Shown here: positions 3,886-62,655 of the stretch, piece by piece
How the letters are laid out: every line of letters starts with the position of its first letter
How positions within the stretch are numbered: position 1 is the first letter of the stretch
NCBI GenBank assembly: GCA_019055375.1
Contig: JAHQIW010000141.1
Span: 593,094 to 657,093 of the forward strand
Direction of reading: 5' to 3'
Length of the DNA: 64,000 nt
Origin: Parelaphostrongylus tenuis
Lineage: Eukaryota > Nematoda > Chromadorea > Rhabditida > Metastrongylidae
Made by a program: the position numbers and the translations under genes
The notes under the pieces: generated by a model
The model's database searches: none
Seen by the model: only the letters and a program-made list of their open reading frames with translations
What the model was told of the DNA's origin: nothing

Positions 3886-6084
3886 TTCGTGCTGTTGATT
3901 TATTATTTTATAAAGTTGGTAGAAGGGCGAAGTGGTCAATGATGAAACTAGGTGTAGGTTCAAATCCACTACTCTAAAACTCTCTTGCAACCTACGTGTG
4001 AACGCTTCAGATTGGTTATCTCCAAGATTGCAAAGAAATTCGACTTGACTGAACGTCTACGACATTAATAATGAAGACGTTGCAAAAGGAGCAAGCGAAA
4101 CAGCACGTGAAATGTTCTTAAGCCTATATGGACAATGAGTACAAAGAAACGAATCAGATGTAGAAAATGGTGGTATAATCACAGTGAATGTCGTGACTGG
4201 TCATGAAAATATAATTGAAAAGAAATTCTTAATTCAAATAAGCACTATTTATCTGGTCCACCCCTAGTCAATAACTCAATTTCTTACTTTTTATAAACGC
4301 CTTTCATTATCATGACAGTTACTGTCGAGCTGAGTTCTTGATAGATTTTCAAAGCTTTCAGTCTGATGCATATCTTCGTATCAATATTTCTTACTTGCTA
4401 TGACCAGACATCAGTTGTTGAAATCATTTCATTTCGCTCCGGTTCATTTCATAATTTACTAGGTAGTTGTCTTTAATCCGCTGTTTTTTCGATTGAAGAA
4501 AGAGAATTCTATTCGAATAGAGTTTCGAAAGACGAGCTTGAGTCAGAATCGGAAGCACTCGATCATCTCGACATATCAGTGGCGTGCCATCTCCTGCCGC
4601 TCTCCTCTTATGACTAGACCATAAATCCCCGCCGCCAGTCAAATGTCGTCCACTGCGTAATAGATATGCACATTCCAAAACAGAACAGCGAATCGAAAAC
4701 GTAGGGAACGAATGTCTTAGTCCCTGTTGGTAAGCCTAAAATGATGGTGAATCGCGGCGTTCAATGACGATAATTTCAGCACGGTATAAGATTCGATTAT
4801 GAATGAATCAAAAATGAATGAATCTTCCCTCACTCTTTCTCTCTCTCCTTCTCGTCATCTTTATTTCCTATAGAAAAGCGGTGTTCCCAATATTTTAGAG
4901 TCATTATATTCATTGACATTCCCATGCTTAGTGTTGAACTTATTCGAAGTCCAAAAGAATTTATTAAGTTGGATCTACTTCCATCGTGAACCATTAGGTC
5001 GCCAACTAAATATACGACTTTGACTTGACAATAATCTCAGTCTTCGTGAAATTGATTGCAAAAAAGGCTATGGAGTAGCAGCTCTATGGTTGAAAAACGC
5101 ATGATTTCATAACGATGACGAAAATCACCATCAAAATCCTCCAAATGCCGACTGTTTTTGCAACTTTCTCTGCTTGTTCAGTGACCTCTGAGTCATTTTT
5201 CATGTACGAGTGCTTTTTTTTTTCACCTTACAGGATGGTTGCTGGGTGACCTGATAATAATTTGAAACTCCAAAGCATTCCCAACTTACCTCGAATTTTT
5301 TAGAGATCGAGAAATGGCAACCATCTAGTGATATGCTGAGATTTTCTTTTGGTAATCTTGGAGTATATGTTGTTACTTTTTATTAATGAAATTCATAGAC
5401 TTCATCAAAAACCATGACAACTATAAAGATTCACCCTTTTTTCTAATTTAAGATTTATTCAAAACCCAGGACTATACCCCGCACTTCTACGCTAGTTTTT
5501 TTTGCTGTATGGAGTATTTTTTTTAGGACGAATCCAGTCTTGTGGAATACTAATGAGAGCTAAAAAAACCGAAAACTGTCTTGCAGTCGCCACTAAAGAC
5601 TGTTTGAAGGCAATAACTGCTGATGACTAAGGCAGCGATTTGGAAGCTCAGAGTAGAATAAGGCGTTATTATATGAATAGTTCGAAACTCCTCAAACATA
5701 GTAGAAATTCAAAAGTGTTCCACTAATAAGTGCATTATGTGTCAGATGGAAGCAAATAGATTGCCGTTATCGAGTCAGATCTGCATCTATTTTACACAAC
5801 AGATTCCATCCATTTCTTGATACTTCAAGGAAGAAGTAGATTCGACTCGACTGCTGATGAGAACGTCCTGTGGAGAGTTATACAAAGACAAGGCACTGAA
5901 ACAGTTCGTTCATCGAGTTTCCACTAAAATAAAGTTAAGAAAGCTGGCCCATCGTCGATAACGAGATGGTGATTGCCGTAGGTCTGTGTACAGTGTGACA
6001 TTTTTGACGTTTGCAAAATTGGAGATAGATTCGTTTATGTCAACTGAACCCTTGCACACAAAAACAATTCATGTAAACATCTTT
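3886..6084. other. no gene recognised
   Basis: Only short open frames. The longest is 84 codons on the minus strand at 4424-4678, with no motif I recognise. A CT-rich simple stretch lies at 4830-4860. Confidence 0.45.
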
Positions 6085-6292
6085 CGTTTCGAGCGTTTTT
6101 TTTTAAGACCACGCTCAAATTTCAACATGCCAGATAATCATTTTTGAGGCACTCATGTGGTCTGTTATATAGGGCTGACATATAGAGCCGACTATACCGC
6201 CCGACTGATGAGACTGTCAAGGTCGAAACACGTGTTTCGGGCTCCGTGACCACACTTGCGGACTCAAAAATGATTATCTAGCACATGTAAGC
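6085..6292 (+). mobile_element. hammerhead-bearing foldback element, short form
   Basis: The left arm (about 6130-6180, containing CAGATAATCATTTTTGAG and ATGTGGTCTG) and the right arm (about 6238-6285, containing GTGACCACA and CTCAAAAATGATTATCT) are imperfect inverted repeats of about 45 bp. A plus-strand hammerhead motif lies between them at 6199-6242. The outer sequence near 6105 (AAGACCACGCTCAAATTTCA) recurs at most other members of this family. The left ribozyme and internal body seen in longer members are missing, so this is an internally deleted copy. Confidence 0.7.
6199..6242 (+). ncRNA. hammerhead ribozyme, minimal type I
   Basis: All conserved parts are present. Stem I is GCCCGA (6199-6204) with TCGGGC (6237-6242), six pairs. 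The core is CTGATGA (6205-6211). Stem II is GAC/GTC around a seven-base loop. Core GAA is followed by stem III ACA-CG-TGT, with T as the cleavage-site base before stem I. Stem III has only three pairs and a two-base loop, but ACACGTGT is self-complementary, the arrangement known for hammerheads that cleave as dimers in Penelope-like elements. The cleavage ability is inferred, not shown. Confidence 0.8.
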
Positions 6293-13862: not shown

Positions 13863-14949
13863 ACCTAGATGTGCATACTAGATTTTTTTTTACTATTCAT
13901 CAAGGACCAATGTCTCAATCGTTACTTCTAATGCCTTTTTTCAGCGCCACTGTGCTACTCTTCCCAGTCTGTGTCCCATTGTTGCTCGGTTCTCTTTCTA
14001 ATGTTTCTGTGGCAATTTCCAATCACATACGGATTGACTGAGAAGCATGAATTGTCGAGGTATTGCGTTGCTTTCCCGGTGTTTTTTCGCCTCTTCACTG
14101 ATGACTCAACTCCTCATTTCGGCTGGCATCTCCCACATGAGAAGCGTCAACAATGTAGTATCACGTGGGATGGCTTGCGGTTTACAGCGACGTTAAGCGG
14201 TCCCGTTCTGAAGAATTCGATGGCATATTCATAATTAGCAGCTTCGTCGCTTCGGAAGTGACCTTCAGCCGTTTAGTTGTGTTTTCATTCGCAATTATTT
14301 CCATCGATCTGTCGCCGTTGTTCATCGTTTGCATTTCGACGTTCCTGATAAGTCGACCATCGGATGTTTTACCTAATTCTGCCGAAATTCTTCATATGAT
14401 CTGAAAATTTGGGAACGTGCAGAATTCAATCACCCAATGCGAAACCGATTCTATTATAATCGAATTTTGGGACCTCTAAAACATTTTTATGACACAAACG
14501 TTCAAGTCTAATCGATTTTATTCTTTCAACGAAAATTTCAAAATATTCAAGCGATCTTCCTCTATTCATACAGTGTCCATGGAATTAATATTCAAAGAAA
14601 GCAGGGAAGAATCTACAGTAAATTGACCTTTTTGGTATTGCTCGATTTCGTTACATTTCATCGAGACCTTCGAATTGCGAAAATACCAATTACGCCGAAG
14701 TGTTCCAGCATCGATACGAGATTCTCTTCATCTATAGAACTATATCTTGTATTTGAGCTTTACCAAACTTTTAAAATCATATTATTTCTAAGGTTGTGTA
14801 TTCTTTTATGATTCCGCTTATTCATTGTCAGTCGCCTATTCATAGTCAGAAAACTTCCTTCATCCCAAAATTTGATTCATTCTATATGATTGCCAAAATT
14901 GTGCTGCGATTACACTGTTGGCTTATATGAATATAATTATACCTTAATC
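13863..14949. other. no gene recognised
   Basis: Several overlapping open frames of 62-106 codons run between 13721 and 14404 in all three plus frames, which suggests chance rather than one gene. No motif is recognised. Confidence 0.4.
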
Positions 14950-15240
14950 TCGAGTGCTTTGTTTAGACCACGCTCAAATTTCAATATATGCACGAGTGCA
15001 AAACACTCTGTGTTAGGTGAATTTTTCACCTGACATAGAGTGTAAAGCGTACGTCGTCGATAACTATATATATAAGGAGTGTGACGCTCCCGAGAGAACT
15101 GACTATAAAAAGATCGACAGACGACGGGTTCTGCCCGGCTGATGAGTCTGTGAGGACGAAGCACGTGTCTCGCGCTGTACAAGAGCCCTTACCAGACCAC
15201 ATGACATGTTGGCTCAAATAATGATGAAAGGATATATGAA
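14950..15240 (+). mobile_element. hammerhead-bearing element, one arm and internal body
   Basis: It starts with the family outer sequence (GTGCTTTGTTTAGACCACGC near 14955-14975), then jumps to the internal body (CATAGAGTGTAAAGCGTACG near 15033, GTCGTCGATAACT). A plus-strand hammerhead and the right terminus (CAGACCACATGACATG, GGCTCAAATAATGATGAAAG) follow. The arrangement matches 38945-39250 closely. The left arm ribozyme is missing. Confidence 0.65.
15133..15175 (+). ncRNA. hammerhead ribozyme, slightly degenerate
   Basis: Stem I GCCCGG (15133-15138) pairs with TCGCGC (15170-15175) with one mismatch and one wobble. The core CTGATGA (15139-15145) is intact, and stem II is GTC/GAC with a six-base loop. 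The first stem III pair is changed: GAA is followed by G instead of A, giving a G-T wobble with the conserved T before the cleavage base C. The palindromic block CACGTG is kept. Reduced or no activity is expected. Confidence 0.65.
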
Positions 15241-18130
15241 TATAGTTTTCGTTATAATGCTTAACTTCTATTTAATGCCTATTCCTTATTCATTACAAGA
15301 TATGATGTGAAATACAACCACACGAATGCGAGGTACGAAAAAATTTCGAAACCACAGATGACCTTCGAACCCCAAGATCAGCTTTTCCGGGAGCTCACGC
15401 GTTAGCCATCACTCCAACAAATCCCTTCATTTACTTAACTCCCACCCAGTAACCTTGTTGGTGCTATCAGCAGTCACTCGTCAGTTGTATTGTTCTAGGG
15501 ACGACATAAGCTGGCAATTCGTCTACTGCTTCTATGATAAATTATCCATTCGTTAGTTTCCTTATCGTGTGTGAAGGTGTTTTTCTCAAGCATCGAATTA
15601 TACACCATAGCGGAATGATTCATGCCTGATCATGGTCTCAAAACTGAAAAGGAATCGATGCTTCCTCGCTGAGGCCGCTACGTGAACCCCTGCCTTTCTG
15701 GTAACAAAGTAGCTACACGCTGGCAATTGATGACTACTAGAAAAGCCTTAGTACGCCTTTTAGGAGTCCTGAGATGAGAAAGCTCACCCAGCTGGCACTT
15801 TTTGTAAAACGAATGTTGTGTTGGGGTCCTACGCTTCTTTGAGTTTGTAGAGTCCTCCTGTCATTGAAATGTTAATACTCGCTAGAAATGATGTTACTTT
15901 CGGAAGTTGTGGGCTGAAATAACAAGTTCGAAGAGTAGTCCGGTTCGTTTCTCGTTTGCTTAATAATTACCCGCAGCAGCTGTCTTTTTCCAGATCTGGC
16001 GAAGGACTGTTTATCATCATAAAGAAATCTCCTTAAGTTTATGAAATGCTGGACCTATCTGAACATTTTCCTATGTTGGTATTCTAAAGACCGATTAGGA
16101 AAGGCGTCCATGGTCGCTTAGGAGTCCAACTTATTCAATTAAAAGCCAATAAAATTTTAAAAGTTTCCTCAAACCTATGTCCTGCTGTGTTTCTGTGTTT
16201 ACATGAGCTTTTTACAAAGAAATATTATGAGTAAGGCTTCGGCTCCTTCTCCAACCTCAGTAGCGAAGAGATTCAACTTGATCGTCCACAGCCGTTTCTT
16301 CGTACCATGTGCAACACCACGCGAATGAAGTAACCTCACTTGATGGTGCACTTCTATATAGGACGGTTGCCGATCTAGTACCATTCATTGCGATCTTCCT
16401 CTATGACGAAAGCGTGTACTGACATTGCTTATCGTCCAATTCTCTTAGGTACATTTAATAGCGCAGCAATATATTTTTTAAAACCGGGCTCTCGTTAGGC
16501 TTTTGATCCATTTATGATAAGCCAGTCCGCGTCTGTTGCGTTCCTCTAACAGCGACGGCAGCCATCGCTTTTTGTTAGATTCTAATGGGCCAGCTGTACT
16601 AAAACATTGGGCTGTTTCGCATAGTTCCATATGACTGGTCTATTAGCTCTCGCACGTAGTTCCGTTTTTGAATCGTTGCATCGGATTGCGATGCTTTCGA
16701 TATCCGCTGTAGTCTGTTAGAAAACTACGAGCCCTCCAACTGTTCTAAACCAATCAATCTTATGGCCGAAATCTTTCATCAAAGCTATTCTCTCAGAAAA
16801 TTTTCGAGCATCTTTTCGATCGACCCTACTTTTCAATTTTATTTCATGTAAATTTGTCAGTTACACATCAAGATGGGTGATGAGTTGTGCATTAAACGGC
16901 TTATGATCAATTAATCTCTGGCTAATGGTGTAATCTTAGTGCCGTTGACAGGCCAACGTCTATGTGGCGACCGTCTTCTTGATCACACGAAATAGTTTTT
17001 GGTACTAATCAGAATGTTTGGCCCATATTCCTCCAGTAATCATAAAGGTCTCAACACATTTTTCCTGTGAATTGTTGGTAAAATGCATCAGTTTTAACTC
17101 AAATTACAAGATATCCATGCCATGATGTTCACTGGTTTTTCCAACGCTAGTGGATGACCGTCTTGAATGGAAAAGTGAGATTTTGGTATTTGTAAATGTG
17201 AAGTGCTGGCAAAAACCTAGAGATTAACCTTTGCCAGTGTTTCGCATTTTCAAACGTAGTATCCTCTGTTGTTATAACGTCAATGACAAATCCTAGTAGC
17301 AACTGTTTGTGCTTCAAAATAAAACCTTCTACTAATTGAAATGAAGAACGGAGAACGAGACTGAATTGTAAAAACTCATGGCCAAGCGCCACCACATCAT
17401 AATCGCTCTATTCTGCGATTTATGGATTTTTTTCTGCATAACAGTGCAGTGATCATCAATCGAGTCATGTGGTCGACTTCAATTATTGCGATCAGACCAA
17501 TAAGATGCTGCTCTTTCTGTAATCATGCAAATCATCGGCAGTGTAGGACATTCTAAATCCCTCTGGCCCCTCGCCATCTAATCTGTTACTGGATATATGA
17601 ATCACTGATCGACGATACATTGTTATTTTTAGGTCTAGGTTCCACTGAACAAAAATCGCTTGGTCGCTGTCATGTGACTTTCTTAATATACAACATCCGT
17701 TTTGGAAATATCTCGAAATAGTTTAATGGTTTCAGCCTATTTGATGCACCTATGTATTTCCAAATCTCTGATGGACGCATAATAACTTCTTGCAGAATTT
17801 CTAATTTTTGGTAGTAGGCACTAACAGATATGTGCGGAGCGGTATTCCTGATTATTTATTTTCCCTACTGCCTATTTACTCTCTTTCTAATGATTTTGTG
17901 TGTTGCCTTCCCCAACTTTTTTGTAGGGAAATCTATTCATGTTAAAAGGCGGGACATGGAAGATTATGCTGTATTATATTGATGTAAAAATTAGTTGAGT
18001 AAGAAAATATGTGAAATTATAACTTGGAAAATGTTTGAGGATGTGGACAGTCGTGAAAAGCCCAATTTCGTTTCTCCCGACTTCCTATTTTGTTTCTTCA
18101 AAATTGACTCGTTCATGGACTTTATTCTAG
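15241..18130. other. no gene recognised
   Basis: Open frames up to 82 codons (minus, 17147-17395), without recognisable motifs. This stretch lies directly upstream of the LIM-domain gene and may contain its promoter, but I could not identify regulatory elements. Confidence 0.4.
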
Positions 18131-18151: not shown

Positions 18152-21100
18152 ATGCCAAACTGTCCAGCTTGTCAGAAGCCAGTCTATTTTGGTACGAATT
18201 TTTCTCTATTATTTTTGCTTCACTATAGTTTCATCACCTAATTCTAGCCGGTTTCGATGTTCGCTATTTAATTCAATAGAGAGATCGTAGTCTCCTATGA
18301 AAAAGAAAGCGATCCTAGCTCTTCCAAACGACTGGTTATTCACTGTTTGTTAATGAGTAGTACTATGTTGTCGTATTTCATAAACCTGGAGGAACCTGCA
18401 TAGGACTGTTTTGACAATATTATTCGCAACCCATCCGACAATGACCGCTACAATATTTGAGTAATCATGATTAATATGAAATTAAAGGACAGAATCTCTT
18501 TTACAGCGATATTCTGACTTCTGGAAGTCTTCTTTTGTATTTCTAATTCTTTTGACAAATGAGGTTCAAAAGAAGGCGCAATAATATTAGAAAATATACT
18601 TCATTGCAACGACCGCGGGAACACTGGAGGCACTTCCGGAAAACCCATAGGTCGACGGATTTCTTTTTTAGCTCTATTATTTTTCGACGTTCCTCTTCAA
18701 AGTGGCCTTTGCATTCAGATTTTTTCATATTGTCACAAAGAGGTAGCGTATTAATGTTACTAGCCTGACTATGCTAAGCGTTTCGACGACTGCAAAAAAA
18801 ACTATTGCATTTGTAATTATTCCATGGCAACAGTTCACTTTACGTCATTGATTACAAAAATTCGTCATTGCTATTATGCTGTACACCATAATGCATGTGT
18901 TGCGTAGTAATTAGTGGTAACTTGTAATACACACATGACGTCGGTTCGATCGAGCCCTATGGGCAGACCAACCAAGCATGCCACGTGGTCAATAAGTTCG
19001 AAGCGTACTTCTTTCGAGAAAAAAGAAATGCTGGCTTGATACATCGATATGCCCCAAAAATCGATGTTTTGGCCAGAATAGATTAAATTACCTCTAGTGA
19101 GGCTTAATGAAGATGTGAAACGCCACCATTGAGGGATTAATCAACGCTAAACGCTCTATCTGCTTTCTTTTATTTTATTTCACAGCTTACCATACAGTCA
19201 TTTTGTGCGGTCAAAGATTCATATCTCTTTTATGGGAATGTCTGAGAACAGTTATGAAATAAGGCAGTTATCCGTTTTAGGTGAACGAATTTCGTCACTC
19301 GGAAAGGATTGGCATCGACCGTGCCTTCGTTGTTTCAACGAGTCCTGCAAGAAGACGCTAACCTCCGGCGGTCACGCAGAGGTGGTTACTGCATTATTAA
19401 TTATAGTACTAGGAACGATAATAATGAAATAGCAGTATCACATTTTTACCATGTTCAAAATCGCTAAAGTCATCTTTTTTGTCTTGCATAGCTTCTATAC
19501 GTCTACGTCAACACTGTCAGTATTACCTGTATATTCGATTCATTTTTGAGACCTCCCTTAAAACAATGTGTAATCTTATAACATATTTTATGCCTTACAT
19601 GAGGTCTGCTATGGTACTTATGAAACGCTAGAGACACGTGTTTCGGCCTTTCAGCCTCATCAGTAGCACGGTGCCTTTCGTTCGAGCCAATATCTTGCAA
19701 GGAGAGATACCCTTTACATATAAAGAAATCCACGAGGATGGTGTTACACTGCACGTGCAAGGTGAAAAAAAAACACTTCACACTGCAGAGATAACAAATC
19801 ACTACATGTCCAGTGATAAGATCAGCCTGCATTGCAGTGATTAACAGTCGATTGCTCATGGGTGCTAATTGAGGAATAACTTTATAATCAGAAATATGTT
19901 GTCAGATCATAACTGTTTTGAGCGAGTCAAAAAACAACCGACTACAAGGGTACTTTTTAACGCACCAGCCATTAGCAGTTGACTGTTGATTACTGCAATG
20001 TCGGGTGATCTTAAAACTGGATTTATAGTGATTGTTATCTCTGTAGTGTGGAGTGATTTTTCCCTTGCGCGTATAACGTAACATCTTTTCTGTCAATTTC
20101 TCCAGACACAGGGATATACCCCTTCAAACGAGTTTCACTCAAACGAAAGGCACCGTGCTACTGATGGAGCTGACAGGTCGGAAACACGTCTCTAGCATTT
20201 TATAAGTTCCGTAGCAGACCTCTTGGAAGCGATAATAAATTTTATCAGATTATATACTGTCATTATTGTTATCGCATCGTGGCTCAAAGCTGTTTTCGAA
20301 CGGTTTTATGAACGGCGATTCTTATCCGAGTTCCTCTCCAAGATTGTTCTCGAGCAAGCAGCGAGTTCGACATTTTAATTGCAAAAAGGTTACTATTACC
20401 AATCAGGAGCTACTTTTGAACGACGGCTTCGTTGGTCTTCGTCGGAGTCAGCGATTTACGATTTAGGAACGATACATATACCAGTTGCTGCTTTAAGAGG
20501 AAAAGAAACGTTGAGTTTAATAAATGGTCGTGAAGTGGGAAGCGCGTCTAATTAATCATATTTTCGATTACTTTGTTAGAACACATTTATCATTTGTTCT
20601 AAGTCGCTCATTGGTTGAATCTCTATCAATGAGACATGAAAAAACAAAACGTTTTTTATAAGTGCTTCTTTTCCGACTGTTGATCGATCTTTACACCTTT
20701 CGTTAGAATTGGCATCCTTTCCGCACCCCATTTATAGCTGGTGCTATAAAAACGATGACGTAACAATAAGAAGATAGTAGTTGCCGGTTAAACGTTTTCT
20801 TTCCCTTCAAGTTTTTGATGACATTTTCGAAAGTGAGATCTAACGAGATGCTAATGCTTGTTGAGGAGTTCCTTTGACATAACTAATTTTATCGTATTTT
20901 TTGTACAGACATGAGGTTGTTAAAAGTACGACTTGTCCAGTACAATATAGTAAAATAGGATTGGCTGACGTTTTGGCGTTTCGTCTTTTTCAAAGCCTCT
21001 GAAGTTGTCTATAATCCAGTCATCCAAACACCACCATCACTTAAATAGAGAGAAAAGCAAACACTGATTTTAATCGCATCAAAAATAGAGTAAATTTTTC

Positions 21101-29088: not shown

Positions 29089-29242
29089 AAATAGGCGTCG
29101 ATCGTGCAATTGGTTAGTACGCGCCCTCAGAAAGGGTGAAATGTGGGTTCAATTCCCGTTTGACGTCGGCGTTTCGCACATCACTCAACATCATTGCTTA
29201 TATTTGTAGCATTATATCACAGTAAAATAAGCGATTGAATAA
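29089..29242 (+). repeat. tRNA-derived short repeat, best copy
   Basis: The head GGCGTCGATCGTGCAATTGG, TTAGTACGCG is an A-box-like D arm, and GTGGGTTCAATTCCCG is a near-perfect B box. Acceptor-like GGCGTC and GACGTC ends pair. The tail TTTCGCACATCACTCAACAT, then ATATTTGTAGCATTATATC, is shared with 2376-2580 and 3727-3885. The anticodon stem does not fold convincingly, so I call it a SINE-like repeat rather than a tRNA gene. Confidence 0.65.
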
Positions 29243-38260: not shown

Positions 38261-38331
38261 CGCCTAGAAGCACTGATGTATGCTTGATAATTCTTTGACT
38301 ATGCATGAGATCTGTTATGGGCACTTATCCA

Positions 38332-38372
38332 GTGCAATATGTGCTTTAGCCTTGCAGCTTCATTATTTGCAC
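38332..38372 (-). ncRNA. decayed hammerhead, old left arm
   Basis: Stem I GTGCAA/TTGCAC is still six perfect pairs, but the core has become AAATAATGA and GCTAAAG, so the catalytic bases are lost. It is kept here as evidence of family membership. Confidence 0.4.
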
Positions 38373-38662
38373 GGTGTGTTTTCGTACAGTCAGCTCCTCG
38401 GAGATTAACTCTTAAGATAGAAGAGTCGACAACGAACGTCTCACACGCGCCGTTTAGGGTTGAAATCATCGGAGGGGCACTGTTATACACTCAACTGCTC
38501 TTGGCTGGTAATCGTCAAATATCGTAAATTTCGTTTTGAGTGTTTCTTGAGACCCGCTTAGATTTCAATATTGGTCTCAGGAAATACTCGAAACATAAGG
38601 TATGATCCTTTCATTATTATTTGAGCCAACTTGTTATGTGATCTGGTAAAGGCTCTTGTACA

Positions 38663-38705
38663 GCCCGATACACGTGTTTCGCCCTTACAGACTCGTCAGC
38701 CGGGC
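38663..38705 (-). ncRNA. hammerhead ribozyme, minimal type I, well preserved
   Basis: On the minus strand: stem I GCCCGG/TCGGGC (six pairs, one wobble), the core CTGACGA (position 7 may be any base, so C is allowed), stem II GTC/GGC with a six-base loop, the core GAA, stem III ACA-CG-TGT, and cleavage base A. All catalytic positions are present. As elsewhere in the family, stem III is palindromic (ACACGTGT), fitting cleavage as a dimer. Confidence 0.8.
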
Positions 38706-39119
38706 AGATCCCGTCGTCTTTCGATCTTTTTATAGTCAGTTCTCTCGGGAGCCTTACACTCCTTATGGAGAGTCATCGAAGACTAACGTTTTACACTCTA
38801 TGTCAATTGAAATTTTCACCCCAACACAGAGTGTTGTCGGGCTGTACAAGAGCCCTTACCAGACCACATGACAAGTTGACTCAAATAATAATGAAAGGAT
38901 CTATTAAAATTTGAGCGTGGTCTAAACAAAGCACTCGAAATAAAGGTATAATTATGATAAAAATACCAGCCAAAGAGCAATCGAGTGCGCAACACTCTGT
39001 GTTAGGTGAAAATTTCACTTGACATAGAGTTTGAGACGTTCTTCTTCGATGACTCCCTATAAGGAGTGTAAGGCTCCCGAGAGAACTGACTATAAAAAGA
39101 TCGAGAGACGACGGGTTTT

Positions 39120-39162
39120 GCCCGGCTGACGAGTTTGTAAGGACAAAACACGTGCATCGGAC
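39120..39162 (+). ncRNA. hammerhead ribozyme, degenerate
   Basis: Stem I GCCCGG/TCGGAC (one mismatch), core CTGACGA intact, stem II GTTTGTAAGGAC. The second core strand is AAAA instead of GAAA, and the conserved T closing stem III is C. Probably inactive; it is the opposite-strand partner of 38663-38705. Confidence 0.55.
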
Positions 39163-39371
39163 TGTACAAGAGCTCTTACCAGACCACATGACAAGCTGGC
39201 TCAAATATTAATAGAAGGATCTATTGAAATTTGAGCGTGGTCTAAACAAAGCACTTGAAATAAAGGCATAAGGTATGATATTTTACGATTACCAGCCAAG
39301 AACAATCGAGTGTACAACACTATACGGTCGGCATTTTATCACTTATCGACCTGACTGATCGAAAAGGCACT

Positions 39372-39419
39372 ATACAGCTGACGACGTTGCAAGGCCGAAA
39401 CATGTGTATTTCACTGTAT
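39372..39419 (+). ncRNA. hammerhead-like motif, old right arm
   Basis: ATACAG and CTGTAT form six perfect stem I pairs. CTGACGA and GAAA cores are both intact, and stem III is ACA-TG-TGT. However, five extra bases (TTTCA) separate the cleavage base from stem I. Its catalytic state cannot be judged by eye. Confidence 0.5.
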
Positions 39420-39495
39420 CAGTGCCCATAGCAGACCATATGCATGGCTCGGAGATAACTATCAGGCTTGTTAAAATTTAAGCATGGTCTCAAGA

Positions 39496-41035
39496 AGCAT
39501 TCGAACCAAAAAACATTAATATATTTTTCCAAATCTCTCATTCTTATGATTCAACTTTCATTTGGTGCTTACTCTTTTCTTATGGTGATGTATGATGTAA
39601 AGAACAACCATATGAATGCTGAGATGCGAGCAAAAATCAGTTTCTCAGATGAGCATCAGATCCGCATAAATTATTTCCGAGAATAACTTGAACTCGTTTG
39701 CGCTACTAAGACCCATGCTCTACTTTTCTTTGCCGGGTGATTGCTTATAGTATCACTGAGGTTGAAACATAGATCAGGGAACGGCAATGCTAATGTCTTG
39801 GTGGTGCGGTGCATAACAGGATCCCATTGCAAAGTTTATCATGGGTTCACAACTCACCTGACGCTCCGACTTTTACTCTCATTTTTAGTTGGAACTTGAA
39901 TCACGGAAAAAGAGAAAGCTGGAAGTAAATGGCGAGTAGTGCTGACTGGCATCAAAACTATTCACATGCAATGGATTTTACAAGAGAGATATTTTGTAGT
40001 CATCGACACGAAAATTATGAGACTTTTCGCTTGCAATTAGACCTGTTGAAATAGTATTGAATGCATTGCATCTGAGAGCTTCCTAACTAGGAAAACCTTA
40101 TCAACAAAGAACAGCTAGAAGAGTGGTATTTGAATGAGCACACCACGAATTTCGAAACACGCTCTTTGAGGTTCACTTCTAATATTTTTGAGCTGACAAG
40201 TTAGAGAGTTGTTACAGGACAGTGCGATGAATGAACACTAGCGAAAACATGGCCACAAGTTCGACACCGCCCCTCAGGGCTTAGTGCGCCCGCCCTCACT
40301 TCAAAATATGTCTAGATTTAGATTGGTACGACGTGGGACCGCCCATGAGCGATCTTCCACTACTCTCGTCTTGAGCGTAAATTCATGCTTACTGAGTCAG
40401 TGTAACCTTTTGAATATCAAGTATTACTGGAACGAAGTCGAAAAATAGAAAACCGAAGATAAAAAATGATGAAGAGCATACGACAATTATAGTTAATAGG
40501 AGGCATTGTTTTTATGGTTTCTGGTGAGCATAGTTGTTTTCTTGTTCTTGTTTTGACTTCTTTGTCAAAACTGGTATTTCGAAAGGGCCGATAGAACTTA
40601 TAGAGGCTGGGATCCAAAAGAAAAATTTCCTGCTTGACATCTGTTTTATTTACTTTTTCATCTTATTAGTGTTTTTTTTTCGCTTCAAAGGCTGTCGGTT
40701 TCCTTGATCTGACAAGTGCTACAGAATTAGTGATAAAGAGCAGAGTTAACTCTGAGACTGCGCATTCTCAATGGATATTTGTCCACGTAGGTCTAACCTA
40801 TTGTTTTCTTTCTTGCAAAATGTTTTGATTTTCAGGTAGTTAAGTGCCTCTCGCCTTTTGTGGAGATTTACTCTGAAGGTTGGTCTAAAGGACTCTAAAG
40901 ATTATTAGTTATCACAATGACTGTCAGCTTAACTGGGTTTATGAAACGAATTCGCATACCAGACCTGACCTGTTAAAGGTTTGTGGTTAATAGCTAACAT
41001 AGAGATGTTGAAGAATGAGTGATGGCGCAAATGTG
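39496..41035. other. no gene recognised
   Basis: Open frames up to 72 codons without motifs. Confidence 0.4.
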
Positions 41036-41150
41036 CCTCGGTGGTGTAGTGGTAGAGCACGCGTCTCCGGATAGGAAGAAACGCGGGTTGGATTCCCGCC
41101 TAAGGCCCGCTTTTGCTCACCTCTCAATTCTCTTAAAAATAACTAAAGGT
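41036..41150 (+). repeat. tRNA-like sequence, SINE-type head
   Basis: GCCTCGGTGGTGTAGTGGTA gives an acceptor strand and a good A box, and GCGGGTTGGATTCCCGCC gives a paired T arm with a near-consensus B box. CTAAGGC then partly re-pairs with GCCTCGG. The anticodon arm (GCGTCTCCGGATAGG) does not form a clean five-pair stem and seven-base loop. A tail with GCTCACCTCTCAATT follows. I favour a tRNA-derived repeat over a functional tRNA. Confidence 0.6.
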
Positions 41151-48029: not shown

Positions 48030-48555
48030 ATGACATGTTTTGAGCTTTTCTGAGATCTGGTAGGGCACTTATATAGTACCAGACAGTCCCGTTTCGCTTT
48101 TAAGGCTCAAAAGTATCACATAAAATTACTCCTTCATTTGACTGCTTCTCATAGACCTCGCTCAGGAACAAAAGTAATCCGATTATTATATAACATGTTT
48201 CGAGCCTTTTGCGACGGTCTGGTAGGGCACTTATGAAGTACGAAACGGGGCCCGTTCCACATCACCCTTGCGGGCCTCATTAGTAGAACGGTGGTCTTTC
48301 GGTTCAGCCGATTAATATACCATCTACCTTTCAGTTCAACCGATCCGATATATCACGTGATTTGCTTATTCGGCGCCGATTCCTCCATGAGTACTGGTGT
48401 AATTCCCAAAGGCATCGCCTGAACCGAAAGACACCGTAACTACTAATGAGCCCATAAGGGTGAGACGGGCCCGTTTAGTTACTGTATAAGTGCCATAGCA
48501 AACCTCGCAAAAAGGCTAGAAACATTTTATGTAATTACCAGATTATTTTTGATGT
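48030..48555. mobile_element. foldback element with altered hammerhead arms
   Basis: The left arm (GGTCTGGTAGGGCACTTATG near 48218, minus-strand ribozyme-like block, GGTCTTTCGGTTCAGCCGAT near 48292) mirrors the right arm (CCTGAACCGAAAGACACCGT near 48418, plus-strand block, AAGTGCCATAGCAAACCTCG near 48489). A partial extra left terminus lies at 48030-48130. The architecture matches the main family; the ribozyme block has changed sequence (next entry). Confidence 0.65.
48436..48482 (+). ncRNA. hammerhead fold with mutated core
   Basis: The helices are intact: stem I GTAACTA/TAGTTAC (seven pairs), stem II GCCC/GGGT around ATAA, and a ten-base palindromic stem III ACGGGCCCGT followed by T as the cleavage-position base. 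The core reads CTAATGA instead of CTGANGA and GAG instead of GAA. These are changes at essential positions, so self-cleavage is unlikely. The preserved pairing with a wholly different stem sequence is notable. Confidence 0.5.
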
Positions 48556-48667
48556 CTGAAGCGAGGTGTATAAAAACAGTCGAATGAAGAGATAAATTCA
48601 GAAGATTTGAAGCAAAAATAGACTGTTGAGAGTATTGAGAGGTTTTCCCCCGAGGTTGGTACGTTAG

Positions 48668-52056: not shown

Positions 52057-52604
52057 AATAGAGTTATAATAAGTGCGTTTCAGAATCGCCGAAAAAATCG
52101 TTGTTTTTGATCGAATAAACCAAAAAACAAGTAGTACAGAAAACTGGAAGGCAAGTGACTCAGTGAAACAGAAACATACTGAAGAAGGGAAAACTAAAAA
52201 TAGATCAAAACCTACCTGAACAAAAATGATATTAGGCAGAAACCACTAAACTAGAATGAAAGAAATAAAGCATCCTTCAAGGTCCTAAGTCTGTTTTTCG
52301 AATATAAAAATAACAGAAAAGCTTTCTCATAGGTAATGAGATATCTGAAACATTTCGTCTCGAAAAAACAAAAGAAATTTATAGTCAGGAGCTCAATCAT
52401 CTTTCATGAATGGGCAATTAACTTGGATTAAATGAGTTGACGAACTAATCTTTGTTGTATCAATTTTTTTATAGATCAACACTTCCTCCAATCAGCTATT
52501 TTGGACTTCGCTTTGAATTAATACATCCTGACATCATATGTTAAGCCTTTCTTAAAGACCATAATTTTCGCGGCTTCAAACAAAATGAGAGGTGTTTTGG
52601 TGAG
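52057..52604. other. no gene recognised
   Basis: AT-rich, without long open frames or named repeats. Confidence 0.4.
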
Positions 52605-52862
52605 TTCTTCATTGGACATAGAGTGTAAAACGTACGTCGTCGCTAACTCTTATTGAGAGGACTGGAGCACCCACAGAGATTAGCAAAGAGGAGAAAGGGT
52701 AACTGCCCCGACTGACGAGAACGCAAGATCGAAACACGTGTATCGGGCTCTATAAGTCAGCCCTCATGACAGACCACTGACATGCGTGGCTCAAATAATG
52801 ATTATCAGGCATATTGGAATTTGAGCTGTGGTCTTAATCAAACACTCGAAACAAAAGTATTA
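52605..52862 (+). mobile_element. hammerhead-bearing element, right arm with body
   Basis: Internal body (CATAGAGTGTAAAACGTACG, TCGTCG at 52617-52642), a plus-strand hammerhead, then the family right terminus: GACAGACCACTGACATGC, GTGGCTCAAATAATGATTAT, CAGGCATATTGGAATTTGAG, CTGTGGTCTTAATCAAACAC. No left arm is found, so this is a one-armed or truncated member. Confidence 0.7.
52705..52748 (+). ncRNA. hammerhead ribozyme, minimal type I, intact core
   Basis: Stem I CCCGA/TCGGG with flanking G/C extends to about six pairs. Core CTGACGA (52712-52718), core GAA, stem III ACA-CG-TGT, and cleavage base A are all intact. Stem II is weak, with only two outer pairs (GA/TC) closing GAACGCAAGATC. All catalytic bases are present; a weak stem II may lower activity. 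Confidence 0.75.
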
Positions 52863-55800
52863 ATAAAAGTTTACAATAAAAGATTAAAATTCAACCATGC
52901 AGTGATATATGTAACACTAACAGATAAAAGATATAAGCTGTACTAGTAGATTGTACCATTCATCAAAAGCTAGACTACGTGGTTTTTTTTTGGAATCTAA
53001 TGTTTTGCTTGATTTTTGATGCCTGACGTGATTTATTTCTGTACACATCAGCAAGAGTCTATGTCAGAATTTGAGCTAAAAAACATTATTTACCGATATA
53101 AGACCACACCTTCACCATTTAATCTTGATCCTTCATTGCATTTACGTCACGCTGTCTACTTAATTGTGCATGACCTTTGTGTGCTCATTAAAGTAGGATT
53201 TGCTATCGGAGGGATTAATGACCTGAAGAAGCGCGACAGAATAGCTCATTGTGCACTTTGGGAATCTTCCTTTATAAATGAAAGGATATTCAGGAATTTA
53301 TCTCGAAAAACCAAAATACACGGTTGAGATTCTCGAAACATATCCAATCTTTGAGATTCAGAAGAATAAATATGCCGAAGCATAGAGAAGTTTGTTATAT
53401 GCAATGAGCAGCAGGTTATATATGTGAGAAGAGCTGTGGAATGCACTCAATGATGATATAGGGATTCTCAAGATACAAGCACGTAATTACAGCTGGCACA
53501 CACTATCATTTACGGGTAGAAAACATTCAGAGATTCCACATTATGCCTCATTGTTATTACGTTCATAGAGACCATGCACTATGGACAATGATTTCATGGA
53601 AAAAATACGAATAGAAAATGTCCCTGAGACTAAGTCTATTCAAAAAAGTGGGTGTTCAAGTGTGTCCCAAAATATAACTATTGAAAATGCGGACAACACC
53701 TAGTACTTGCAGATTGTGTTTTTCTAAGACTTGGATTATTCTAATGATATTGCTAAAAGCTCATATGGCCTGTATTCACAATTAGTTCTCTCAAACGCAT
53801 TTCGCTCTGTTTCTTCGAAAGTGGTACCTATAAAAATGGTTAGATTCATGTGGGGAGTTCAACGACGGATTCGAAGCGTATCATAGTCTCATTTTCTTGG
53901 TGTGCTGAAGAATTATCGAAAAACGAAAATGATTGCTCCTAATTTGTAGGATAGCAATAATAGGGCGTTCCCACGTCCTACACTACGGGAAGCACTTAAC
54001 CCACTCTTGTCGATCGAGGAAGGGTACAGTAGCCTGATATACGACACTTATGACACCGACACCGATTTATGAGCGGTAGTGTTGCGATCAGTCTATCAAT
54101 GGCTCAAGGATGAAGTAGCAAGTCAATGTAAAGCACTAATAAAAATTAGCATAGGGCATTATGCCACTAATACGTCGACTTGTTCTTACCACTTTCCTTT
54201 ATCCGTATAGCTAATCTCGTACTTCTGAATCAACCGCTTTCTAGCGAAAATAGTCGTTTTGAAGTAGTCAATTTCTTGAGCTGCGGATTTGTGGCACATA
54301 TGTAACTGTACACACAAATAGATCTTGAGAGAAAAGTAGAAGAAAAATAAATAATATGTCAATCACTGGTAAATTTGCGAGGGATTAAAGCTTAATTTTG
54401 ATCTGAACGCATTAATATCTTTGTAATGGAGAAAAAAATCATTCATTAAATAGCTTTACGGGAACAAACGCATTAAAAAGTCTAATGTTGTTTACTTACT
54501 CTATCTTTGCCACCTTATAATGAAAATGATTGAATCTAGTTCTCATTTTTATTCATCTACAATCAACAGAAATTTTAGTAGATTTAAACGCGCAGAAGAG
54601 ACCATGAACATCAAAATGGACTCAATAGTACCAGTGTGAAGTGATAGTTGAGCTATCCGAATCACTATGGTGTGAGAACGGTAAGAAAATAATGTGAGTT
54701 ATGATTTAGTTTAAATACCTAGAATCTCTTGACAACTGGATGATGAGAGCAGCCTGAGCGGGGTGAACGGCAACCTATGAAGAATGAGTACAGTGTAGAC
54801 AAAAAGGTGCGGAGTTATTACAATCACTTCCTTTGCTTCGTTTGAACGGACTGGTCATTATGACGGAGTGAAATAAAACACAAGGATCGTGAAGAAAGGT
54901 GCAGTCAACAATCTGCCAGAAAGCGGGAAAACTTCTATTCTTGGTAACAATTGGGATAAAAACTTCATCGCTCTTTTCTTATGATGAAGATATAAGACGT
55001 TTTGAGTTTTTAACTGTTCTACTCTTAAATACATGTTGTCTCGATTGGTTCTCTTCTGTTATTTGGAGACGACTGGAAGAAACGATGCCTTTCGCTGAAC
55101 AAAGACTTTCCACTGCTTTTCTGTTAATCATTCGAAGCTCAAATTTCTGGCTACTGCTCTGCTTCTCTGTCGTTTCGAAAAGTCCGTTGATAACGCTGTA
55201 GGAAGAAGAAATCTTTTGTATCTTACACACGCATATTTTTCGCAGGACAGAGCTCTTTCTTCAACTTGTGAGCAACCATTTGATAGCCTAAGTTTCGACA
55301 ACTTGAACACTGCGTTTATTTTCTCGAAATGCAGTTTCTCGCGGTGTAGCAGAAAGTAAGATTGTACTTCACATAGGCGGGCAATTTTTTTCGGCTAGTC
55401 TACGGGCTGGGCGAAGTAGAGGGGGGAGGGTGGAGAAGCGGTGAGGGGGCGTTGGCCGTGGATTCCATACACGATCGAGTGACACGATACACATGTGGAG
55501 TGCAAATTTTGTACTTTGATTCAAGATTTTTTCCAGATAAAAGTATAATTCTGATACTACAACGATTTCCTTTACACACTCATATGCTTTCCTTCCTTCT
55601 TTCCAACTGTACACATGATACAAATGAAAGCACGTGGAGAGTGTGAAACGTGATCTTATTTTGAACGCTACAGGTCTACAAAGTGGTTTTTCAAAAAAGG
55701 CCACGCAGCGCAAGGGCTAGAGATTCAACTTCTCGATTCAAAAAAAATTACTAACACCCTTATACAAAGTTCTTGCTCAGAAAAAAGGATCGTTTCTTCT

Positions 55801-58250: not shown

Positions 58251-59918
58251 AGGTATTGGATGATTAAAAAATTTTTTTATTCAACCGCTTTCAGCGGTAG
58301 CATGATTATATATAACCGAAAAAACGCAGAGAGTTTACATATCATTCAACATCGTTGGGTATATAAAACATTCCACCACCGCTAAAAACGGTTAAATGAG
58401 AAGATCTGGTGAATAAGACAATCTGCAACGACAACGCACGACGCTTATGACACGCATTTTTGCATTATTCTACCGCTACAACGCCATATGAGAATCTTTA
58501 GAAAATATAAAAAATGTTCCCAGTTCTGCGTGCTTTGAGTTTTTGGATGACTACTTGAGCTTATAGTGCAAATCTTTATTTGGCAAAAAGTTCTCTTCAA
58601 GAAGCCATTTCCGATGACGAAAAAGTACCTTTCTCACAATTAAAAGTAAGGCTATAACTGTGCAGAATGTGCGTAGCTTTTTTACGTCACACGCAGGAGT
58701 TATTTACGTGCTCAAAGCAAATGGGAGTTCAGAGAGGTTCATAGATTATGCACAAAGCAAGAGTAACATAGGTTTTTTTCGACTTACAAAGAAAACCGAC
58801 ACAAAGAAAAACCGACTCATTGAGCGGAAATTGTGTTAAAAAAGAGCAAAGCGAAGGATATCGAAGCTGTCTACACGCACGAGCATTCCTTCGAAGTGCA
58901 TTAAACGTTCTTTTCAAATAAAATTCGGTTATTCTTCACAGTCTAGGAATATTTCAGCGCTTTTGTCGCGCTTTCCATGTCTCACAATCTTCTTTGCAAG
59001 CTTATAAGCTTGCGGTGCATAAATAATAACTCTTGTGTGCGAAGAAAAACCATCTACGTACATGCTTCACAGTTATAAGAGAAATCTCTGATTGCGAGAA
59101 GCAACCCGAAGATTTTCAAAATGTTAGAGTTTTGCTTTAGCCTAATTATGGTCAAAACAAAAAAAAAACACTTATTTGAAGCACTGAAGTTTGCACTGAG
59201 GGATGATATATGCATGTAGACTGTTGAAAATGTATGGGTTTCTGTATCTATATCTATGATTTTTATTTTATACTGCCTTTTACTACAGTCTCTTGCGCGG
59301 ATCTCAGTAATTCTAGCATTCGATTCGTTTCCTCACAGCCATCGCCCCAAACGTGCTCGAATATTTTGCATGTTCTTCCGACTGCTACTTGGGAATTTCG
59401 ACTTTTTCATGGATGCCATTTTTACTGATTAGGCATATCTTCATGCATATTCAGAAGAACCCGAGCTAGAGTGTTTCGTAGAGAGTCCGTTGACCGGTTG
59501 CAAGAGAGTGTTGGAGGAAGCAATTGAACTATTACGTTGTTACGTGATAGTCTGAATCACAAATCACTCGGTCACCTCACCTCCCATCCCACTTCATGTT
59601 TTATTCATACACAAATATATTTCTTTTTACATATTTATGCATTAACCATATATGTGCATTTATACATACACTGCAAAATGGCACGCAAAACATTGCTTAC
59701 GGATACGATAATAAAATCTTAATGCACTTTAAAAAATTAGGCGTCTGTGGAGACCTCTCTCTTTCGAAAAAATATATTTTATGCGCATAGGTTTCTTTTC
59801 ACAGTTTTTGTGGCAACCGGTAGCTTACGCAATGTAGATATCAAATCACGAGATATGGATATAAAATCTCAATTAGCCTCAAAAAAGCTGTTTTCTTAAT
59901 AACGTTTGTTTTGAGTGT
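58251..59918. other. no gene recognised
   Basis: AT-rich with open frames up to 64 codons. CTACAACGCCATATGAGAAT near 58490 is a fragment of the dispersed repeat also seen near 21900. Confidence 0.4.
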
Positions 59919-60000
59919 CTTCTTGAGACCACGCAAAAACTTCAATATGCCTATAATTATCTATCGAGACAAGTAAGTGGTCTGTTATGGGACTCATAGA

Positions 60001-60046
60001 GCCCAATACACGTGTGTTTCGCGCTTGATAGCCTCGTCAGTTGGGC
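60001..60046 (-). ncRNA. hammerhead ribozyme, left arm, intact core
   Basis: On the minus strand: stem I GCCCAA/TTGGGC is six perfect pairs. Core CTGACGA and GAA are intact. Stem II contains GCT/AGC with one bulged base. Stem III is extended to four pairs, ACAC-AC-GTGT, and the cleavage base is A. This is the only copy in the window whose stem III could form a stable hairpin by itself, since one CA step has been added. Confidence 0.78.
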
Positions 60047-60326
60047 AGTTCCCTTCGTCTTAGCCAATTCTCTTGGTGGGAAGCTAACTTCCTTACATAG
60101 AGTAGGCGACGATGTACTATTTACACGTGCCATCAAGTGAAAGAAATAACTGGATAGGCAATGTTTTTACGCTCGATTGCTCTCGAATGGTATTTGTGAA
60201 TTACTATACTGTATGCTACCGTATGATTTCCTTCACTTGACGACACGTGTAAGTAGTACGTCGTTTCCTGCTCTATGTAAGAGGGTTGAGTTCCCACCAG
60301 GAAGATTGGCTAAGACGAAGGGCACT

Positions 60327-60370
60327 GTCCAACTGACGAGGCTGCCAAGGCCGGAACACATGTATTGGGC
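60327..60370 (+). ncRNA. hammerhead ribozyme, right arm, one core change
   Basis: Stem I GTCCAA/TTGGGC (six pairs, one wobble), core CTGACGA, stem II GGC/GCC with a seven-base loop, stem III ACA-CA-TGT, cleavage base A. The second core strand is GGA instead of GAA, a change at a catalytic position. The stem I base differences from the left arm are partly compensatory (C to T still pairs with G). Confidence 0.65.
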
Positions 60371-60440
60371 TCCACAAGTGCCCATAAGAGGCCACATGAA
60401 TGGCTCAAAACATAATTGTCAGGCATACTGTTTTTTAAAT

Positions 60441-61127: not shown

Positions 61128-61675
61128 GACTTGTTTTGAGCCATTAAGTCTAGTGCTATATAGGCGCCTATTTTGTCCTATTAGGACTCATCAGTTGCGC
61201 CCTCCCTCAGTTCCGTCGATCCCTTGAGGCTAAATAATCCTTCAAAGGAATCGACGCCAATTAAAAATAATAACCCCACGTCGGATGATGGTATTACTTT
61301 TTTCTTAGGCACTAGTAATCATTCGAAATTCAACGTTCTTATCGTATAGAAACTGACATATGCACTAAGAATATTTGACCATGTAGAGAAAATCATGGAG
61401 CATCAGAGAAACACAAAGAACCTAAATTTTTCTTTTGCTTTCTAAGTAGGGAAAAACCTTAGTTGAAATCTTGACACTGAACATTTAGTGATCTATCTAC
61501 TCTGCAGTGTGCGAAGGTAACATGTTCGTCGACGATTCCTCTATGTAAGTGGGTTTTGTCCTAAAAGCGGATTGGCTCATACGAAAGGCACCGTGCAACC
61601 GACAAGGTTGGAATGCCGATATAGAAGTTTTGCATTGTATAGGTGCCAATAAGAAACTTCATGGAAGGCATAAAA
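61128..61675. mobile_element. diverged hammerhead-family foldback element
   Basis: Left terminus GACTTGTTTTGAGCCATTAA (61127) then a minus-strand ribozyme-like block; right arm GCGGATTGGCTCATACGAAA (61567), GGCACCGTGCAACCGACAAG, GTGCCAATAAGAAACTTCAT (61643). The left and right arms are strongly diverged from each other. The body includes GTTCGTCGACGATTCCTCTA near 61528. Confidence 0.55.
61153..61200 (-). ncRNA. hammerhead-like fold, decayed
   Basis: On the minus strand: CTGATGA intact, stem II GTCCT/AGGAC with a three-base loop (five perfect pairs), and a twelve-base palindrome ATAGGCGCCTAT at the stem III position. The second core strand is AAAA instead of GAAA, and stem I pairs poorly. Likely inactive, but helix II and palindrome III are strikingly preserved. 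Confidence 0.5.
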
Positions 61676-62369
61676 ATCACTGTCTGATTTCACTGCGTCG
61701 AGTTTGAGATTTGTACAAAGCTCACAGCTGAAGACTGCTCTTGATAAGAAGACTGCAACAATGGTTAGGGATTTGTAGCACAATTAAAAAATGACGAAAG
61801 AGATGGCCGAATCACAAAGTCATTGCTCATATGAAGGGCTTGGTCAAACTTCCTGTTATTGTGACAGTAAAAGGAAAGCTAAATGGAGACGTTTTTAAAT
61901 GCTAAGAAAACACCGAAAAATGATTCTATACTTGTACAGAAAAATGGAAACACTGACTTTATAAATTGGTAGATTCCGCATTACCGCTATAACGAATTCT
62001 GCTTCATACTAGGCAGTGAGTACATCTGATAAGTATCCAAGCGAGTAAGGTGGCGCACTGCAGAGGACTATTCAATCATTCAATGCACTTTCTACAACGA
62101 GCACATAAAAGATGAAGTGAATGCACATTTCCGGCATGCAAGATCAGTTTTAAAAAATGTGAAAGATTTCAATTAAAAATGAGCACTATTTGGAAACAGA
62201 GCAGAGGAAAACTACATATTCAATACGGCTGAGTGATACGCGAGATCTGAAAGTCAGGCTGGAATTTGAGTTTCACCCATAGCGGAAGGCGGGGTACTAA
62301 CACCATACACCGAGGCCATTGCTCTTCTATAGTTCTTTTTGCAAAATAATGTTTGAGACCTATCTAGTA

Positions 62370-62655
62370 ATTGATATTTGAGTCAAGATGTCATATGGTC
62401 TGTCACAGGGCAAAATTATAGAGCCCGGTACACGTGCTTTGACCATAAACAGTCTCATCAGTCAGACGGTACTCTTCGCCTTTTGCCGATCCTCCTAAAG
62501 TGCTCAGTCCCCTATACTAAGAGTAGCCGACGACAAACATCCTACATCGTCCATTAAGTGAAATTATCACCGAATGGACAGTATTATAATGATAGTCACG
62601 AGATATGTTAAAATTTTGAGCGTGGCCTCAAGAAAACACTTGAAAACAGAAGGTT
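62370..62655. mobile_element. hammerhead-family element, left arm, body and right terminus
   Basis: Left arm TGATATTTGAGTCAAGATGT (62370), CATATGGTCTGTCACAGGGC, minus-strand hammerhead relic, CTTCGCCTTTTGCCGATCCT (62475), body AGAGTAGCCGACGACAAACA (62520). It then jumps to the right terminus TTTTGAGCGTGGCCTCAAGA (62614). The right ribozyme is missing. Confidence 0.65.
62423..62467 (-). ncRNA. hammerhead ribozyme, degenerate
   Basis: On the minus strand: CTGATGA intact (62461-62455), stem II GAC/GTC with an eight-base loop, and palindromic CACGTG kept. The second core strand is AAAG instead of GAAA, and stem I (GTCTGA against CCGGGC) is largely unpaired. Probably inactive. Confidence 0.5.

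Follow-up and report, generated by a model that had tools for sequence, protein, structure and literature searches.

Head-to-head hammerhead foldbacks that share the insertion signature of Penelope-like elements and are probably mobilized by them

Introduction

How does a foldback element come to carry a hammerhead motif in each of its two arms, on opposite strands, and what kind of element is it? The question is raised by the two-armed element at 59902-60432 of the window, by which we mean the whole stretch of 64,000 nucleotides analyzed here. A preliminary description of this DNA compared the element with Penelope-like retroelements (PLEs) and retrozymes. Animal retrozymes have been described as direct tandem repeats, and the passages on inversion or opposite orientation in that work contain no inverted retrozyme form (Cervera and de la Pena, 2020; PMC7229834). 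PLEs have been named as the likely mobilizers of animal retrozymes on the basis of co-occurrence (PMC7761336). Among rotifer PLEs, head-to-head inverted copies are the most frequent form, and Arkhipova et al. (2013) reported the PLE tail on one inverted terminal repeat and duplications of 8-10 bp in some cases, and proposed self-priming (PMC3846280); the qualitative PLE form, head-to-head with a tail on one inverted terminal repeat, is thus already published. More recently, Frangieh et al. (2024; PMC11167929) reported, for a PLE protein in purified form, that both strands of the target are cut and then extended, and that reverse transcription starts internally at two adjacent sites, the intervening stretch being the PLE tail; they predict a dimer, saw no difference in start site between the top strand and the bottom strand, and found that insertion in vitro does not require the ribozyme. 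Our literature search, with most subscription papers outside its reach, found no paper on two-armed retrozymes or on a counted rule for their two ends of the sort given below.

Results

Both arms of the focal element, the left on the minus strand and the right on the plus strand, are homologous to a 320-nt retrozyme unit and form an inverted repeat (60010-60147/60226-60363, 82% over 138 nt). Hammerhead-like motifs that align with those of other arms lie at 59999-60047 on the minus strand, with stem I CCCAA/TTGGG and an irregular stem II, and at 60326-60373 on the plus strand, where the motif scan found GGA in place of the core GAA. Neither arm was matched by Rfam at E<=10. The substitution of the conserved GAA, the irregular stem II and the lack of an Rfam match at that threshold make both ribozymes look decayed; the preliminary description of an inverted repeat with one opposed hammerhead per arm holds for the arms and the opposite-strand motifs. 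The outer ends are of the two kinds defined below, T on the left (with the tail) and N on the right, the N end being placed by visual comparison with the 52.7-kb copy. Remnants of a target-site duplication flank the element on the plus strand, CTGTTTTCTTAAT at 59888-59900 and CTGTTTTTTAAAT at 60428-60440; they match at 11 of 13 positions, a score reached by about 1% of 300 window pairs drawn at random.

The same plan had been claimed for four further loci of the window. Inverted arms are present at three of them. The copy at 38604-39321 has a minus arm (38605-38837) and a plus arm of 1.5 units (38837-39321), with hammerheads at 38661-38707(-) and 39118-39164(+) and arms 89% identical over 38604-38820/39005-39221. 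Further fragments lie beside it at 38261-38400 and 39377-39504, and the interval first given, 38261-39495, is a composite that takes in these fragments as well as the two-armed copy. An older two-armed copy of another subfamily, recognized by self-alignment and motif scan, occupies 19518-20262 (hammerhead on the minus strand at 19623-19671; arms 19563-19635/20188-20260, 79%), with a duplication remnant ACTGTCAGTATT/ACTGTCATTATT that matches at 11 of 12 positions. Another older copy, with both arms recognized by self-alignment, lies at 48123-48600 (arms 48169-48260/48460-48551, 74%); it is an exception in that tails seem present on both arms, and a duplication was looked for and not found. The fourth locus, 61128-61675, was rejected as a two-armed copy, its two pieces failing to align with one another: the left piece has 90% identity to genomic loci L005/L006, and the right piece is like other subfamilies, with 67-68% to the 60-kb and 19-kb elements.

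Other copies in the window complete the picture. A young two-armed copy at 14933-15237, absent from the preliminary description, was found by unit mapping and by a match to the Rfam type III model. It is 95% identical to the reference unit and has a short minus arm (14933-14989, outer end T), a plus arm with a hammerhead (14993-15237, outer end N) and an intact 12-bp duplication, TATATGAATATA, at 14924-14935 and 15233-15244. A one-armed copy on the plus strand (52599-52865) has a hammerhead with an intact core at 52704-52750. A short copy (6081-6250) consists of a minus piece, 6081-6189, followed by a plus hammerhead at 6197-6244, also with an intact core. A decayed copy at 62368-62645 was recognized by unit mapping, with a hammerhead-like part on the minus strand (62375-62481) and a plus piece at 62612-62645. 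The plus arm of the 38-kb copy begins at 38838, the first base past the predicted cleavage site, which is possibly the trace of cDNA made from a cleaved RNA, or chance. An inner junction at the cleavage site was considered as a rule from this copy and from the piece ending at 6189 and was rejected: the inner arm ends of mapped copies are scattered along the unit, and with about 60-80 inner ends the chance that one of them hits the cleavage site exactly is roughly one in four to one in five.

Two further features of the window were also recorded. Exons at 19151-19432 and around 18161 resemble a LIM-domain protein, presumably of the CRIP type, and the 19.5-kb two-armed element stands directly after the second LIM-like exon, probably in an intron. 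Two tRNA-Ser-like sequences, at 29094-29168 and 41035-41108 (anticodons aga and gga), are either genes or tRNA-derived repeats.

The hammerhead assignment was examined by several routes. A motif scan of the window gave six type I matches at score >=10, compared with a mean of 0.4 in 10 Markov-shuffled windows, and placed type I motifs on opposite strands within the window elements. Across 23 arms from the window and the genome, the three stems contain 33 compensatory cells vs 11.5 +/- 2.8 in shuffled alignments and have a covariation score of 0.340 vs 0.178 (0/500 shuffles as high in either case), values that kinship of the arms alone can raise. For the same stems, pairs with changes on both sides (6; 91/500) and the number of pair types (17; 344/500) were within the shuffle range. 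At E<=10, Rfam found two hammerheads in the window altogether, one with the type I model at 38663-38705(-) (27.3 bits, E 0.018, gathering score 34) and one with the type III model at 15120-15167(+) (24.3 bits, E 0.97). Outside the window, eight matches to the type I model exceeded gathering, at 34.9-38.8 bits; they came from 7 of the 20 genomic loci sampled and included both arms of L015. Genome-wide, at least 20 matches were over the cut-off. Judged from their sequences, the elements carry a putative type I hammerhead, with the core CUGANGA...GAA, three stems, and an opening at stem I. Matches to miRNA, lncRNA and snRNA models in the window and the sampled loci were rejected as false; they are below gathering, and many fall on inverted or AT repeats. 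A second hammerhead subfamily (L001-L008, for example L002, L003 and L007) has a longer, loop-free stem III, ACAGGCGCCTGT-like, and is often found as inverted pairs; such a stem III might favor dimeric ribozymes.

We then asked how common the inverted form is in the genome, which has 481.5 Mb in 5,105 contigs, with the window in contig C88. A 30-nt pattern of one hammerhead subfamily has 4,401 exact matches genome-wide (2,226 + 2,175), and the reversed pattern, as a control, has none in the same genome. The first 53 of 100 listed places among the 4,401, taken in list order, yielded 44 distinct loci, six duplicates (L016, L023, L024, L027, L036 and L038) having been dropped. The reference unit was the 320 nt of a real tandem array, L061:931-1250. 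By mapping to this unit and by self-alignment, 32 of the 44 loci are two-armed on our own calls; six of them rest on self-alignment alone (L017, L021, L040, L046, L055 and L058; 26/44 without these), three on mapping alone (L020, L032 and L051), and the calls for L013, L017 and L055 are weak. The sampled loci bear out the earlier proposal that the inverted form is the common one. Loci L059-L071, picked for their clustered hammerheads, were used for ends and duplications and kept out of the two-armed fraction. The arms also have a nearly constant polarity. Opposite-strand hammerhead neighbors less than 700 bp apart are divergent in 17 cases and convergent in one among the 100 listed places, and divergent in 11 and convergent in none among 61 further places for one variant, so that 28 of the 29 point apart; the sole convergent pair is the junction of two adjacent two-armed insertions (L022). 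Likewise, 40 of 41 mapped two-stranded clusters run minus then plus, L066 being more complex. Same-strand neighbors number nine among the 161 places, and tandem copies exist (L061, L062). The unit is strongly self-paired in its predicted fold (z -4.4).

Two observations were made in passing at the genomic loci. The same two-armed element is present at L003 and L004 (G000:C821, 12500 and 31757), 19 kb from each other and in opposite orientations; the alignment figures of the two are identical, which suggests a larger inverted duplication. L115 (G000:C3131, ~160-24504) is a tandem array, with a period of 568 bp, of SL1-like RNA genes with the leader GGTTTAATTACCCAAGTTTGAG; the match reaches 47 bits vs the Rfam gathering score of 75, the remainder of the RNA being divergent. 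SL1 marks nematodes; taken with the LIM-like exon near 19.3 kb, the array indicates an animal host, probably a nematode.

Insertion structure was analyzed in 79 clusters, after eight loci had been dropped (six duplicates plus L004 and L006), and 78 of them have enough flank for a duplication test. A single 11-14-bp duplication surrounds 14 of 41 two-stranded clusters and 5 of 37 one-stranded clusters, 19 of 78 in total, and 0.12% of mispaired flanks reach 11 bp. Examples are TCAAAACCTTTA (L022), GATTTCCCATCG (L035), ATAGTAATAACT (L037) and GATTTTCTTTGCT (L057), besides that of the 14933-15237 copy of the window.

The outer ends fall at two places of the unit. With u1 as the C of CTGATGA and predicted cleavage after u31, 73 of 82 outer ends lie within an N window, u80-125 (mostly 82-109), or a T window, u130-170 (mostly 139-156); the two windows make up 27% of the unit and were set after the ends had been seen. 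N ends are about 50-80 nt, and T ends 108-125 nt, past the predicted ribozyme cleavage site. Both ends could be classed in 32 two-stranded clusters, nine of the 41 having been left out beforehand for an end outside both windows, and 30 of the 32 combine an N end with a T end (P = 1.2e-7 under independent halves); the exceptions are L012 (NN) and L051 (TT). One-stranded clusters have 15 N, 15 T and 8 other ends. Similar motifs occur at N and T (GAAAGGATATAT and TAAAGGTATAAT), in the predicted apical loops of two adjoining hairpins. The first priming hairpin is conserved, with 94% of cells paired and five pairs recovered by RNAalifold; its covariation, with one of the 14 pairs on a gap column, is not significant.

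Arm likeness was also compared with a view to one circular RNA as the possible template of both arms. The arms of one insertion resemble each other more than arms of different insertions do: their likeness is 0.932 vs 0.891 with right arms permuted, and 0 of 10,000 permutations were as high (19 insertions). Repeated passes within one arm beat the arm-to-arm likeness in 9 of 13 arms by small margins (16 arms, three of them without a second arm). L061 and L062 contain identical full units, which fits a circular template and equally a homogeneous tandem source.

PLEs of the same genome were then compared with these elements. GIY-YIG domains are abundant, with 150 scored matches among 1,723 first-look candidates, all those listed being above the cut-off. 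The copy L076 has an open frame of 893 aa with profile matches to RVT_1 (1.1e-11) and GIY-YIG (2.4e-7), a reverse transcriptase with a GIY-YIG endonuclease as in an autonomous PLE, together with an inverted 1.4-kb arm that is 99.4% identical to its own 3' part. A minimal hammerhead-like motif 3' of the frame is presumably the PLE hammerhead. Among the 150 scored matches of the 1,723, GIY-YIG pairs less than 5 kb apart comprise 20 divergent, 0 convergent and 2 same-strand pairs. The preliminary description took the inverted form to run against the habit of Penelope-like elements; the divergent pairs of this genome contradict it, and rotifer PLEs are alike (PMC3846280). Outer ends were compared in 19 further PLE pairs, of which 18 were assessable, leaving out C411 (L111/L112). 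A tail of about 47 nt is present on one arm and absent from the other in 18/18 assessable pairs, or 19/19 with L076. Duplications of 12-14 bp surround 14 of the 18, mispairings reaching at most 11. The motif ends are 55-56 nt (no tail) and 102-104 nt (tail) past the predicted PLE cleavage site.

The retrozyme insertions thus have the features of a PLE insertion, namely head-to-head arms, a tail on one arm and a target duplication. No homology accompanies this likeness: a profile search of retrozyme against PLE priming regions returned only the retrozyme nested in L111 (7e-6), the next best being 0.57, and pairwise scores were at chance. A 21-nt likeness near 48.6 kb was rejected as priming-region homology, being at chance level with the profile search negative. 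The nested copy itself (G000:C411:53570-53940) lies near the no-tail end region of a PLE arm.

Discussion

We concluded that the foldbacks are in all likelihood hammerhead-bearing, non-autonomous retroelements of the animal-retrozyme kind. The PLEs resident in that genome probably insert them in trans: at a target break staggered by about 12 bp, RNA would be copied onto the two broken ends, each end starting at its own RNA site. The argument for PLE mobilization is that retrozymes and PLEs share orientation, duplication length, the rule of one tail and one no-tail end, and similar distances from the ribozyme. The kinship in kind proposed earlier is upheld. Like animal non-LTR retrozymes, the elements are short (~320 nt here, RNAs of ~170-400 nt there), low in GC and noncoding-looking, with a type I hammerhead, a highly self-paired predicted RNA, duplications of more than 4 bp (11-14 bp in 19/78 clusters here) and PLEs alongside (PMC7229834, PMC7761336). 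Animal retrozymes are described as direct tandem units of about 150-450 bp; the unit here is 320 nt and occurs in tandem at L061 and L062, yet most of the sampled copies are head-to-head foldbacks with one end of each kind. The elements resemble GIY-YIG PLEs in their head-to-head copies, duplications, one-end tail and a hammerhead upstream of two start sites at similar distances (PMC3846280, PMC11167929). PLEs differ in encoding a reverse transcriptase and an endonuclease and in having a minimal hammerhead, whereas the hammerhead of the retrozyme units is fuller, they encode neither protein, and sequence homology between the two was not detectable; a unit of 320 nt is too short for reverse transcriptase plus endonuclease and could not be an autonomous PLE. 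Plant LTR retrozymes are likewise non-autonomous hammerhead retroelements, but they have type III hammerheads in LTRs, 4-bp duplications and a proposed Ty3-Gypsy partner (PMC7761336, PMC4918200).

The shared signature and the published biochemistry together suggest how such an insertion may proceed. A PLE protein would bind the retrozyme RNA downstream of the hammerhead and cut both target strands about 12 nt apart, and each target 3' end would prime at a different one of the two RNA sites, one arm apiece. As read from the sequences, each cDNA appears to run 5'-ward, at times over more than one unit (L061, L062), and to stop at varied places. The two cDNAs would then be joined at the inner junction, which would leave RNA 5' ends inside and 3' ends outside. 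With insertion from both target ends, the foldback would be the normal product. The one-of-each rule is left unexplained by the findings of Frangieh et al. cited above, since start sites are alike on both strands and the ribozyme is dispensable in vitro (PMC11167929); a dimer with one subunit per start site would explain it. Because the rule holds in PLEs too, the protein, with one subunit per site, explains it better than a circular template does.

Self-priming is an unlikely account of these structures. In this scheme the inverted repeat arises when a single cDNA, or an antisense RNA as suggested for rotifer PLEs, bends back on itself and uses its first arm as the template for a second. The idea was put forward for PLEs because of palindromes seen where their copies join in inverted form (PMC3846280), and a short palindrome, CAACACTCTGTGTTG, is present at the junction of the 38-kb copy. 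Self-priming nevertheless predicts second arms with varied ends, and what is seen are two fixed sites, one each, in 30/32 retrozymes and 19/19 PLE pairs. At L062, a single locus, one arm has two units without a difference in 323 nt, and the other arm differs from them at about six positions over 319 nt, which also speaks against one arm being copied from the other.

Twin priming by a LINE-type reverse transcriptase in place of PLEs we hold to be quite improbable. In L1 twin priming, too, both target strands prime on one RNA, and an inverted 5' part comes to lie within one duplication. We know of no L1 twin priming with two fixed start sites and one-of-each use. Human L1 twin priming does yield 5'-inverted inserts with duplications (PMC2837659). 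In a comparison that covered the PLEs of the genome, however, the retrozymes and those PLEs share both the pair of fixed ends and their one-of-each use.

That tandem copies became inverted by chance rearrangement, or only seem inverted through misassembly, is very improbable; tandem copies do exist (the nine same-strand neighbors among 161 places, and L061), but inverted copies are the sample majority, almost all are divergent, and 14 of 41 have one duplication around the pair. Foldback DNA transposons or MITE-like elements, mobilized by a transposase and carrying the hammerhead along passively, would share the inverted-repeat form and the duplications, but this reading is scarcely credible. 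Such transposons have constant identical termini and a fixed-length duplication, whereas here the N and T ends lie about 50 nt apart and vary by several nt, the duplications measure 11-14 bp, inner starts are scattered, arms can be longer than one unit, and one-armed and tandem copies exist.

If PLE-driven insertion from both target ends is correct, it has consequences for the ribozymes. When both strands of three copies were folded in silico, the minimum-energy structures of all six strands had 5-6 of the six stem-I bases of the sense ribozyme paired with the opposite arm. With the stem-I strand so paired on both strands, cleavage would be disfavored in two-armed transcripts, and foldback and cleavage would compete, as the preliminary description had anticipated. 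A strand of such a copy usually has a single sense ribozyme, with a complementary arm facing it, and from this we infer that the majority of two-armed copies are dead ends. For unit-length RNA to be released, one arm would have to contain two sense ribozymes. The motif scan found at least two in one arm of the two-armed loci L009, L026, L051, L053, L062 and L067; such arms are possible sources, and their presence is compatible with a life cycle that few insertions carry forward. More tentatively, and short of an even expectation, one two-headed PLE reaction may serve for both the PLEs' own insertions and those of retrozymes: two subunits on the no-tail and tail sites would each cut and extend one strand, and the outcome of each complete event would be a foldback that has a no-tail arm and a tail arm. 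On this view retrozymes would be parasites of PLEs whose normal product is a self-silencing mirror repeat, with only the rarer tandem arms feeding new unit-length ribozyme RNA.

A family of more than 4,000 hammerheads in one genome, the sampled copies of which have a PLE-type insertion signature, adds evidence from insertion structure to that from co-occurrence for PLE mobilization, evidence that is short of proof. A single purified protein and a single short RNA would suffice to test the retrozyme-PLE partnership. The rule of one end of each kind is relevant, too, to the question of why PLEs sit inverted, and it fits copying from both target ends better than self-priming.
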